Shown here: positions 25,829 to 31,056 of the stretch, in pieces
Numbering within the stretch: the stretch's first letter is position 1
How the letters are laid out: the number at the start of each line of letters is the position of its first letter
Origin: Microbacteriaceae bacterium PS02343
GTDB taxonomy: Bacteria; Actinomycetota; Actinomycetes; Actinomycetales; Microbacteriaceae
Assembly: GCA_029959365.1 (NCBI GenBank)
Contig: JASCOA010000021.1
Location: forward strand, 1-38,270
Direction: 5' to 3'
DNA length: 38,270 bases
The notes under the pieces: generated by a model
Told to the model about the DNA's origin: nothing
Database searches by the model: none
What the model saw: only the letters and a program-made list of their open reading frames with translations
Position numbers and translations under genes: made by a program

Positions 25829-28738
25829 ATGCCGAACACCTCGTCCATCGTCCTGCCCGAGGCCCCCGAGCACCTGCGCGCCGTGCTCGAGGCCGGCGGC
25901 GCCGTCGCCTGGTCCGAGCCGATCGTCATCGACACCTACGCGCCCGTGGAGCCCTCGGCGTACCCGATGTACCTCGACCAGCGCGTCTACCAGGGCTCGA
26001 GCGGCCGGGTGTACCCGCTGCCCTTCTTCGAGCGCATCGAATCGGAGCCGCAGCCGCGCACCTGGCAGGCGATCCACCTCGAGAACCGCTCCATCCGCCT
26101 CGTGGTGCTGCCCGAGCTCGGCGGCCGCATCCACATCGGCTACGACAAGACCACCGGCTACGACTTCTTCTACCGCAACAACGTCATCAAGCCTGCGCTC
26201 GTGGGCCTCGCCGGCCCCTGGATCAGCGGCGGCGTGGAGTTCAACTGGCCGCAGCATCACCGGCCGGCCACCTTCCTCCCGGTCGACACGACGATCGAGC
26301 AGGCCGACGACGGCAGCGTCGTCGTCTGGTGCAGCGACCACGATCCCTTCGCGCGGATGCAGGGCACGCACGGCATCCGCATCCGCCCCGACAGCTCCCT
26401 CGTGCAGCTCGACGTGCGGCTGCACAACCGCACGAGCGACCGGCAGACCTTCCTGTGGTGGGCCAACGTCGCGGTGCGGGTGCACGACGACTACCAGTCG
26501 TTCTTCCCGGAGGACGTGCGCTACGTCGCCGACCACGCCCGCCGGGCGCTGACCGCCTTCCCGCAGGCGGACCGCCCGTACTACGGCGTCGACTACGCTC
26601 AGCGCGCCGCCGAGCAGCCGGGCGCCGATCGCATCGACTTCTACCGGAACATCCCGGTGCCGACCTCGTACATGATCGTCGACACCGAGGACGACTTCTT
26701 CGGCGGCTACGACCACGCCGCCGGGGCCGGCTTCGTGCACTGGGCGGACCGGCGCATCGCGCCTGGCAAGAAGCAGTGGACCTGGGGGAACGCCCCCTTC
26801 GGCCACGCCTGGGATGCGCTGCTGACCGACGGCGACGGACCGTACGTCGAGCTCATGGCCGGCGTCTACACCGACAACCAGCCGGACTTCGCCTGGCTCG
26901 CGCCCGGCGAGACGAAGCGCTTCAGCCAGTTCTGGTTCCCGATCCCCGCCATCGGCGTCGTGCATCAGGCGACCCCGGACGCGGCCGTGCACGTCGACCG
27001 CGAGCGCGGCTTCACGGCCCGCTTCGCCGTGACGGCGCCCCGATCCGGCCTGCGCGCCGTGCTGCTCGGCGCCGATGGAGCGGTGCTCGCCGAGCGCGGT
27101 GGCGACCTGGCTCCGGGCGAGGTGCTCGTCGTCGAGGCCGACGGCGACTGGTCCGATGGCGCGACCGCCGAGCTGCGCGACGCCGACGGCGCGGTGCTCG
27201 TCGCCTGGGCGGCGAAGGCGGGCAGCGATGCGGAGCCGTGGACGGCCACCGAGCCGCCCGCTCCCGCCGACATCGCCAGCAACGACGAGCTGTACCGCAC
27301 CGGGCTGCACCTGCTGCAGTACAGGCACCCGACCCGCTCCCCCCGCGCCTACTGGGACGAGGCGATCCGGCGCGACCCCGAGGACGCCCGGGTGCGGCTC
27401 GCCCTCGCCGACGCCGCCTACCGCTCCGGCGACTACGACGCGGCCTACGAGCATGCGGTGATCGCACTGGGCCGGGTCACCCGTCGCAACGCCAACCCCC
27501 GCGACGCCGAGGCGTACACGCTGCTCGGCACGATCCAGGCGCGCCGTGGCCGCTCGGGCGAGGCGGCCGAGGCCTGGTCGAAGGCGATCTGGGACGCCGG
27601 CCAGCTCGGCGCCGCCGGCCTCGAGCTCGTCCGCGCTGCGGCGCGCGCCGGCCAGGACGCGGCGGCGCTCGCCGACCTGCTCGAGCTCGACGCGCTGGCG
27701 GCCCCGGACCGCCGCCGGGCGCTGCCGCGCGTCGTCCTGCTGCGCCGCACGGGACGGCGCCCGGAGGCGGAGTCCGCGCTCGCCGCCGCGCTGCGCGAGG
27801 ACCCCCTGAACCCCGCGCTCCGCTACCTGCGCGACGGCACGCTCGTCGACGACGGCCTCACGCTGCGCGACGTCGCGCTCGAGCTCGCGGCCGTCGGCGA
27901 GCTCGACGACGCCCTCGCCGTGCTCGACGCGGCGACCCGCTCAGCGGCCGGCGGCGGCGGCAACGCCGTGCCGCTCGCGCATTACCACCGCGCCAAGCTG
28001 CTCGACGAGCTCGACCGCCACGATGAGGCCGCGGCGGAGCGGGAGGCCGCCCGCGCCTCGGACGCGCGCTGGGCCTTCCCGGCCGGACTCGACGACCACG
28101 ATGCGCTCGTCGCGGCGATCGTCGCGGGCGACGGCACCGTGGCGCGCGCGCTGCTCGGCATGCTGCTCTACGACGCGGGCCGGCGCCGCGAGGCCTTCGA
28201 GCAGTGGGCGGCCGCGATCGAGGCCGGCAGCCTCGATCCGATCGTCCACCGCAACGCGGGCCTGGCCGCCTACAACGTCGTGCACGACGACGACGCGGCC
28301 GTGCGGTTCTACGAGCGGGCGCTCGAGCTCGACCCCGAGGAGCCGCGGCTGCTGTTCGAGCGCGACCAGCTCGCTCAGCGGCTGGGCGAGACGGCCGAGC
28401 AGCGCCTCGCGCGGCTCGAGTCGAACACGGCCGTCGTGCTCGAGCGCGACGACCTGCTCATCGAGTACGCCGACCTGCTCGTCAGCGCGGGGCGCGCCGC
28501 AGAGGCGCTCGCCCTCATCGACGACCGCCGCTTCCAGCCGTGGGAGGGCGGCGAGGGGCGGGTGCTCGGCGCCTGGGACCGTGCGCGCACCGCGCTCGGC
28601 CTGCCGCTGATCGACCCGCCCGCCTCGTTGGGCGAGGCCCGCACCGAGTACACCGCTCCGGTCGCCCGGCACGACAGCGGCGAGACCGACTACTTCGCCA
28701 CCAGCCTGCCCGAGCTGCTGCTCTTCGCCCGCGAGTGA
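25829..28738 (+). CDS. DUF5107 (mutarotase-like) and tetratricopeptide repeat protein
   Basis: A 969-residue cytoplasmic protein. Residues about 25-390 match the DUF5107 type, a large beta-sandwich related to galactose mutarotases, with the conserved stretches ELGGRIHIGYDKTTGYDFFY and WISGGVEFNWPQHH rich in aromatic and His residues. From about residue 480 to the end come many TPR-like helix pairs, for example SPRAYWDEAIRRDPEDARVR and the pair near 820-850. Genes of this type occur with glycosidases in actinobacterial sugar loci, and the activity is not established to my knowledge. A sugar-binding or aldose-handling role is inferred. It runs straight into the GH35 gene on the same strand and is probably co-transcribed with it. 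Confidence 0.9.
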   Translation: MPNTSSIVLPEAPEHLRAVLEAGGAVAWSEPIVIDTYAPVEPSAYPMYLDQRVYQGSSGRVYPLPFFERIESEPQPRTWQAIHLENRSIRLVVLPELGGRIHIGYDKTTGYDFFYRNNVIKPALVGLAGPWISGGVEFNWPQHHRPATFLPVDTTIEQADDGSVVVWCSDHDPFARMQGTHGIRIRPDSSLVQLDVRLHNRTSDRQTFLWWANVAVRVHDDYQSFFPEDVRYVADHARRALTAFPQADRPYYGVDYAQRAAEQPGADRIDFYRNIPVPTSYMIVDTEDDFFGGYDHAAGAGFVHWADRRIAPGKKQWTWGNAPFGHAWDALLTDGDGPYVELMAGVYTDNQPDFAWLAPGETKRFSQFWFPIPAIGVVHQATPDAAVHVDRERGFTARFAVTAPRSGLRAVLLGADGAVLAERGGDLAPGEVLVVEADGDWSDGATAELRDADGAVLVAWAAKAGSDAEPWTATEPPAPADIASNDELYRTGLHLLQYRHPTRSPRAYWDEAIRRDPEDARVRLALADAAYRSGDYDAAYEHAVIALGRVTRRNANPRDAEAYTLLGTIQARRGRSGEAAEAWSKAIWDAGQLGAAGLELVRAAARAGQDAAALADLLELDALAAPDRRRALPRVVLLRRTGRRPEAESALAAALREDPLNPALRYLRDGTLVDDGLTLRDVALELAAVGELDDALAVLDAATRSAAGGGGNAVPLAHYHRAKLLDELDRHDEAAAEREAARASDARWAFPAGLDDHDALVAAIVAGDGTVARALLGMLLYDAGRRREAFEQWAAAIEAGSLDPIVHRNAGLAAYNVVHDDDAAVRFYERALELDPEEPRLLFERDQLAQRLGETAEQRLARLESNTAVVLERDDLLIEYADLLVSAGRAAEALALIDDRRFQPWEGGEGRVLGAWDRARTALGLPLIDPPASLGEARTEYTAPVARHDSGETDYFATSLPELLLFARE

Positions 28739-31056: not shown

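Follow-up and report, generated by a model that had tools for sequence, protein, structure and literature searches.

Which reaction, if any, is carried out by a protein that joins a mutarotase-like domain to a long array of TPR-type repeats and is encoded between a divergent regulator and a glycosidase? This question is raised by a 38,270-nucleotide stretch of DNA from Microbacteriaceae bacterium PS02343, here called the window. The focal open reading frame (25829-28738, plus strand, start codon ATG) encodes a long DUF5107-TPR protein of the YphG family with 969 residues, as assigned by Pfam, homology and AlphaFold. The gene is backed by its codon score and by 71 aligned relatives, and it is the sole DUF5107 match in the host genome. 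The original prediction had located it divergent from an AraC gene and directly before a GH35 gene, which was confirmed by Pfam and gene calls. The AraC-family regulator (24837-25724, minus strand; PF12833, PF02311) is separated from it by a 104-base divergent intergenic region (25725-25828) that, going by its position only, presumably contains AraC-controlled promoters; no inverted repeat was found there as an AraC operator. The GH35 gene (28786-31056, plus strand, start at 28786 or 28855) represents a divergent subfamily and matches PF01301 with an E-value of 2.1e-40 and 139.7 bits at a cut-off of 27.

What had been described as one galactoside locus consists in fact of two modules, each with its own regulator. 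The right-hand one begins with a LacI-family regulator (31084-32103, minus strand; Pfam) and continues on the plus strand with a gene of the GH42 beta-galactosidase family (32241-34265; PF02449, 5.6e-140), whose open reading frame opens at 32178. A MalE/GanS-like sugar-binding protein (34380-35600; NCBIfam MalE 186.6 bits and GanS 159.6 bits, both below their cut-offs), a MalF-like permease (35712-37307; MalF 310 bits, below the cut-off of 392) and a second permease (37304-38200; profile search) follow. Between the LacI gene and the GH42 gene, a repeat search identified two identical 19-base near-palindromic, operator-like sites (32135-32153 and 32203-32221, plus strand); none appeared in any shuffle of the window. 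The host genome has no further exact match to the core pattern, and the LacI protein therefore most likely controls the GH42/transporter half. A regulatory link of both modules via this site was considered and rejected, as it matches exactly only at its own promoter. Most likely, the AraC, DUF5107 and GH35 genes form a unit that is separate from the LacI/GH42/transporter module; the two halves may nevertheless work on related substrates.

The focal protein begins with the mutarotase-like domain (residues 24-376, 25898-26956, plus strand like all parts of the gene), which was delimited by structure match and conservation. The DUF5107 model PF17128 covers residues 60-372 with an E-value of 1.3e-58 and 198.9 bits (curated cut-off 24.4). 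A TPR superhelix (residues 478-922, 27260-28594; Pfam and AlphaFold) makes up most of the second half, with the best Pfam TPR-model stretches lying within residues 493-845. The AlphaFold model contains about 440 residues of TPR-type helices, from 485 to 922, close to the roughly 480 residues first estimated. A small beta domain (residues 385-461, 26981-27211; AlphaFold strands and conservation) sits between the mutarotase-like domain and the repeats and had been overlooked. By eye, no hydrophobic N-terminus was seen on the 969-residue protein. Compared to the longer relative L045 from Agromyces albus, about 90 residues of repeats are absent between residues 910 and 954, as is the C-terminal extension of L045. 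Judged by this alignment, the window protein is a shortened member that lacks repeats ahead of its tail; the nearest tree relatives of known length (968-992 residues) have the same shortening.

The AlphaFold model of the window protein has a mean pLDDT of 92 and a pTM of 0.91. In comparisons with VIA-align, B. subtilis GalM (4bze) matched residues 24-375 with a Z-score of 25.5 (2.7 A, 260 aligned residues), the short DUF5107 structure 5cd6 matched with Z 36.4 over 555 aligned residues, E. coli YphB (3nre) with Z 22.3 and L. lactis GalM with bound galactose with about Z 21. A second model, computed for the yph-type relative L045 (pLDDT 89.6), left the top ranking unchanged and matched B. subtilis GalM with Z 23.5-23.8. 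According to these models, the supersandwich fold of galactose mutarotases is present in the DUF5107 domain, and the predicted mutarotase-like domain holds. At the level of sequence profiles, PF01263 was not among the Pfam families listed for the window protein at an E-value of 0.01, and a comparison of the full-length alignment with mutarotases gave nothing of note. It was also considered whether the TPR tail packs against the beta domain; the alignment with 3ty1 reaches residue 958 in the first model and only spans 18-472 in the second, and this claim was dropped.

The fold raises the question whether the catalytic residues have been kept. For L. lactis GalM, we take His170 to be the acid and Glu304 to be the base. 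An excerpt of PMC5622589 lists Arg71, His96, His170, Asp243 and Glu304 for the site of this enzyme. The residues were mapped with three MAFFT modes on 103 DUF5107 domains (84 long, 4 YphG-type and 15 short), with numbering according to the E. coli GalM sequence as translated in this analysis. Among 44 PF01263-type proteins, H104, H175 and E309 are invariant and R79 occurs in 43. E341 of the window protein (codon 26849-26851) was aligned on the base Glu E309 in all three modes and is kept in 103/103 domains; hhalign with GalM and YphB gave the same pairing, and an earlier hhalign run was one residue off. N213 (codon 26465-26467) took the place of the acid His H175 in all three modes and is likewise kept in 103/103. 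One earlier hhalign run agrees with this pairing, whereas hhalign with GalM and YphB places the His elsewhere. H144, kept in 102/103, was aligned on H104 in two of the modes and faces a gap in the third. For R79, two modes offered no counterpart and the third H143. The global hhalign comparison of the domain with mutarotases was weak (probability 15-27%), and it failed with YeaD in front.

On the basis of these alignments, the base Glu can be assigned firmly to E341, and the position of the acid His is likely occupied by an Asn, N213. The His/Glu pair whose presence was to be checked is thus kept in its Glu, while its His is most likely replaced. As the Glu is firm and the Asn likely, DUF5107 as a whole, and not the window copy alone, seems to depart from the mutarotase site. 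Despite this apparent departure, E137, K315 and W211 are each retained in 103/103 domains across the long, YphG-type and short forms. It is decidedly unlikely that the protein is a working aldose 1-epimerase handling the galactose released by GH35 and GH42. The fold, the base Glu, the galactosidase context and a His that is probably in place would suit such an enzyme. These points are opposed by the probable Asn at the acid position in 103/103 domains, by the missing counterpart of Arg79 in two of three alignments, by the lack of a PF01263 match at an E-value of 0.01, and by true mutarotases with intact residues encoded beside DUF5107 in other loci. Furthermore, the host genome contains two PF01263 genes elsewhere. 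Plain mutarotase catalysis, as initially proposed, consequently fits poorly, given the apparent change of the acid residue and the mutarotase genes nearby in several loci. Another residue could supply the acid, in which case the protein would still be able to catalyze mutarotation.

Of the alignments, A1 comprises 72 of the 78 prepared rows and A5 comprises 55. In the mutarotase-like domain, 114 of the 309 positions from 68 to 376 (37%) are at least 95% conserved, compared to 34 of 423 in the TPR region 478-900 and one of 77 in the small beta domain. The conserved stretch that had been noticed near residues 99-135 is real and extends further, to residue 148: G98, G99 and R100 are followed by 17 invariant columns from K121 to T148 in the 71 aligned relatives. 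The alignment defines a signature motif at residues 121-148 (KPALVGLAGPWISGGVEFNWPQHHRPAT; 26189-26272) that includes E137 and H144. Towards the end of the protein, R873-D875, the motif PWEGGEG (residues 904-910, 28538-28558) and F956, A957, S959 and P961 are common to YphG; the last four lie in the C-terminal tail (residues 946-969, 28664-28735) with its DYFATSLP motif. The motifs NWPQHH, PWEGGEG and FAxSxP are kept in 11/11 aligned rows, the window protein and YphG included. In the window model, the ten-residue blocks with the lowest confidence include 51-60, 121-130, 141-150, 901-910 and 951-960, which contain 6, 9, 7, 7 and 6 positions, respectively, that are at least 95% conserved, compared to 18% of positions overall. 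The other low-confidence blocks 1-10, 41-50 and 941-950 contain none. In the model of L045, low confidence again coincides with high conservation at 51-60, 121-130, 141-150 and 1041-1050, and the unconserved ends are low as well. Loops that are invariant and yet loosely placed in the models would be in keeping with an active site closing over a ligand or against an oligomer partner.

The gene neighbourhood was analysed in 83 loci for which one or more neighbouring genes had been called. These were 79 of 80 loci (L053 had no called neighbour and was left out), the window and three records of a plasmid collection; the 80 loci rank highest among at least 588 matches to the window protein and are rich in actinobacteria. 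E. coli K-12 lies outside this set. Genes were called by codon score and grouped into clusters, each of which took its name from a single representative scanned with Pfam. A contig edge cuts off many loci, and in 51 of the 83 four or more genes were called on both sides. Within six genes, and for the best 80 of at least 588 matches, GH35, GH2, GH36 or PF12876 occurs in 49/83 loci (PF12876 in 19, GH35 in 18, GH2 in 16 and GH36 in 12), and a sugar-type transporter cluster in 60/83. A chance expectation was computed for GH35 proximity alone among the neighbour families. In the host family, 7 of the 58 long DUF5107 genes among the matches listed have a GH35 gene within 10 kb, compared to about 0.17 expected (Poisson 6e-10; the 7 and the 58 were counted by eye and the GH35 places were taken as a round 150). 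The recurrent co-occurrence with glycosidases that had been anticipated is therefore borne out. These seven GH35 genes score 131-176 bits with PF01301, and among the matches listed for the host family no GH35 above 240 bits was seen by eye within 10 kb of a DUF5107 gene. In the same family, all 12 long-form loci examined, four of which had been picked for a known nearby GH35, have AraC, galactosidase-family or sugar-transport partners in varying order.

Alpha- and beta-galactosidases both yield galactose, and GH2 has further activities. Galactose need not be the product of the GH2, PF12876 and rhamnosidase neighbours. None of the four main GH clusters is present in 34/83 loci (best 80 of at least 588 matches), some of which have other GH families; that these loci nevertheless keep the TPR half argues against the proposed docking of glycosidases by the repeats. 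The 34 loci have 105 unnamed neighbours within three genes, of which 83 were scanned. Among the 25 of 164 families listed for these 83 genes, GH59 was found four times, GH27 (PF16499) three times, and GH2 and rhamnosidase twice each; 3-keto-disaccharide hydrolase (PF06439) and GFO/IDH-type genes were found three times each. In 12/83 loci (best 80 of at least 588 matches), and in E. coli as well, an aldose epimerase (true mutarotase) is encoded no more than six genes away. Other mutarotase-like neighbours are clear in Cetobacterium (PF01263, 1.2e-45), L055 and L073, and the likeness is insignificant for the remaining members of cluster 15. For the short DUF5107 forms, the scan covered 49 of 82 neighbours in 10 of 14 loci; the 25 of 61 families listed include no galactosidase and, twice, GH123, which we take to be a galactosaminidase family.

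An AraC-cluster gene is found within six genes in 54/83 loci, and 39 of the 56 cluster members occupy position -1 (best 80 of at least 588 matches). TPRs usually bind proteins. It is therefore worth considering that the protein is a non-catalytic sensor, namely a mutarotase that has lost its activity, binds galactose and uses the TPR arm to signal to the AraC regulator or to a transporter. The apparent loss of the acid His would agree with this, and GalM with the mutation H170N was crystallised with galactose and with glucose, according to the titles of PDB 1nsx and 1nsz. However, 37% of the domain (114/309) is at least 95% conserved with many charged residues, as in enzymes. Moreover, no AraC gene lies within range in 29/83 loci and in 12 of the 51 loci with at least four genes on both sides (best 80 of at least 588 matches), and the regulator in E. 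coli belongs to the ROK type. We regard a sensor as unlikely.

A tblastn search of the plasmid collection, which includes some chromosome-size E. coli records, detected homologues in E. coli and Klebsiella with 41-42% identity over 72-75% of the query; phages gave no match. In MG1655, the divergent ROK gene yphH is followed by yphG, yphF, yphE and yphD (sugar ABC transporter), yphC (Zn-dehydrogenase) and yphB (aldose 1-epimerase), and this operon contains no galactosidase gene. In the Klebsiella record, a sugar porter and an aldose 1-epimerase follow the homologue. Of 5426 complete E. coli genomes, 5369 contain at least 80% of yphG. Frigoribacterium (L043), Agromyces albus (L045) and Curtobacterium (L056) show the same order yphG-F-E-D-C, with identities to E. 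coli of 52-54% for yphF, 51% for yphE, 62-63% for yphD and 48-49% for yphC. In these three loci, which lack the glycosidase families listed above, DUF5107 occurs with a CUT2-type transporter and a Zn-dehydrogenase, and no glycosidase was recognised in the operons. The gene after the yphC relative has a weak likeness to mutarotases in all three; the one in L043 matches DUF4380 just below the cut-off. A quick, midpoint-rooted tree, computed without bootstrap, places YphG and the three actinobacterial proteins on opposite sides of the deepest drawn split, which suggests that the unit of importer, YphG and dehydrogenase is either old or was reassembled. In the taxonomic family of the host, 75 of 299 genomes have a DUF5107 gene. 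Contig-edge copies aside, long forms have about 970-1180 residues, and the 14 short forms examined about 620-710.

Because no glycosidase was recognised in the yph-like operons, the constant factor is more likely a sugar than a hydrolase. The same operons, which combine an importer and a dehydrogenase in E. coli and actinobacteria, would also suit a new glycosidase that cleaves a small glycoside (or, together with the Zn-dehydrogenase, a 3-keto-glycoside), a neighbouring mutarotase then equilibrating the sugar product. The two invariant carboxylates E137 and E341 are compatible with such an activity, as are the PF06439 and GFO/IDH-type genes, three each in the 83 scanned neighbours among the families listed. 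On the other hand, CUT2-type importers usually carry monosaccharides, 49/83 loci (best 80 of at least 588 matches) already have one of the four glycosidase-type clusters, and we know of no glycosidase with an active site in the mutarotase fold. In our judgement, a glycosidase is improbable.

The mutarotase-type fold and the frequent presence of galactose-releasing enzymes and sugar importers nearby suggest that the protein probably performs some step in galactose use. As import and DUF5107 recur and the glycosidase varies or is absent, the simplest reading is that DUF5107 acts on a shared product, galactose or a relative. We tentatively favour, at somewhat less than an even chance, that the YphG-family protein is an enzyme derived from a mutarotase and that it acts on free galactose, or on a sugar closely related to it, in a step other than plain anomerisation. 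The GalM-like fold, the invariant active-site-like residues and the galactosidase-rich loci speak for this assignment; the E. coli yph operon with no galactosidase gene and the N213 column, which is unconfirmed by hhalign with GalM and YphB, speak against it. Such an enzyme, probably cytosolic and descended from a galactose mutarotase, would bind galactose, or a similar monosaccharide, once this has been imported or set free by a galactosidase. It might, for example, epimerise or isomerise the sugar in its opened form. E341 would act as the catalytic base and H144 as a sugar ligand as in GalM; as N213 would occupy the position of the acid His, the role of the acid would have to fall to a different group, for instance E137 or K315. 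Instead of docking glycosidases, the TPR arm would be a part of this enzyme, and its conserved C-terminal loops would close the site or build the oligomer. In the window, the gene is presumably controlled by the AraC protein and transcribed together with GH35.

In the open papers searched (subscription papers and preprints lay outside the search), no functional study of DUF5107 (PF17128, IPR033396) or YphG was found, nor were a functional reading, a residue analysis or the recurrence of yph-like operons. Where yphG appears in the excerpts available from the literature, it is a Klebsiella PCR target, an entry in expression tables, once a "transferase" in a primer table and once a gene of unknown function; excerpts likewise call DUF5107 a domain of unknown function. 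The family, whose E. coli member YphG is encoded by a core gene, is already catalogued, and the term undescribed does not suit it as a family; it is known with its function unnamed, and the window copy is a new member. For this widespread, uncharacterised family, the analysis provides a testable hypothesis that names the class of substrate, the fold, the residues that may be catalytic and the genetic partners. In a wider proposal, which we consider possible and yet more doubtful than not, YphG-type proteins would constitute a new carbohydrate enzyme class on the mutarotase fold that acts on galactose or a small galactoside. Its rebuilt centre would have E341 as base and N213 instead of the acid His, and would be completed by E137, H144, K315 and perhaps loops of the TPR tail. 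The yph operon would then encode an unrecognised galactose-type catabolic pathway, with yphG in nearly every complete E. coli genome and a gene order that recurs in actinobacteria. If catalytic, the rebuilt site would add new chemistry to a fold known mainly for the interconversion of sugar anomers.

Four known systems allow for a comparison. A gan-type galacto-oligosaccharide operon comprises a LacI-type regulator, GH42, GanS and permeases. The right-hand module of the window resembles it in its LacI gene, GH42, GanS-like binding protein and two permeases, but its binding protein and MalF-like permease score below the NCBIfam cut-offs, and this likeness lies outside the DUF5107 module. With GalM and the aldose 1-epimerases (PF01263), the window protein shares the fold, the base Glu and probably one His; it differs by the Asn that most likely replaces the acid His, by the probable absence of the Arg, by the TPR arm and by the lack of a PF01263 match. 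The short DUF5107 protein BDI_1685 from Parabacteroides distasonis (PDB 5cd6) also combines a mutarotase-like domain with helical repeats (Z 36.4 over 555 residues), but it has 575 residues and only 23% identity. The signature residues W140, Q142 and H143 are missing from all 15 short DUF5107 domains compared, and in a weak alignment 5cd6 reads otherwise at the PWEGGEG position. E. coli YphG (b2549) has 41.6% identity over 72% of the query (tblastn) and the same NWPQHH, PWEGGEG and FAxSxP motifs, and contains 1093 residues instead of 969. Both loci have a divergent regulator, and yph has sugar import adjoining; the E. coli operon combines a ROK regulator with a CUT2-type importer, a Zn-dehydrogenase and the mutarotase YphB, whereas the window combines an AraC regulator with GH35.

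The GH35 gene of the window (28786-31056) belongs to a divergent subfamily that was also found in L116, L120 and L123-L126, which are loci from other genomes with DUF5107 genes. The GH35 proteins encoded near long DUF5107 genes reach 131-176 Pfam bits; among the matches listed, none above 240 bits lies near a long DUF5107 gene. The most common GH-type neighbour of long DUF5107 genes is PF12876 (19 of 83 loci, the window included). These "cellulase-like" proteins of approximately 430 residues occur in L034, L038, L050, L118 and other loci, and may represent a so far unrecognised galactosidase.

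Between the LacI gene and GH42, the window contains two identical copies of a 19-base near-palindrome (32135-32153 and 32203-32221) at a spacing of 68 bases. They are likely to constitute a LacI operator pair. An exact-pattern search detected no further copy of the core pattern of this LacI-type near-palindrome elsewhere in the genome.

Two other genes of the window were noted. The first (12753-18014) codes for a protein of 1753 residues that combines a calcineurin-like phosphoesterase domain with lamin-tail and bacterial Ig domains; it may be a large phosphoesterase that is secreted or sits on the cell surface. The second (21980-23665, reverse strand) lies beside genes for a ThuA-like protein and a 2-hydroxyacid dehydrogenase; its product consists of a hexapeptide acyltransferase-like part fused to a long stretch unmatched in Pfam.

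In the AlphaFold models of the window's DUF5107-TPR protein (m7416fecf541f) and of the yph-type relative in L045 (m75f38fbc2e9e), the parts of lowest confidence include several loops dense in invariant residues. Small mutarotase-like proteins are encoded near DUF5107 in L049 (17065-17913), L073 (17200-18162), L087 (12010-12888) and L103 (8961-9923). With Pfam profiles, the L087 protein matches both PF01263, the galactose mutarotase family (1.1e-4), and DUF5107 (1.9e-4), each below the respective cut-off; it may link the two families.
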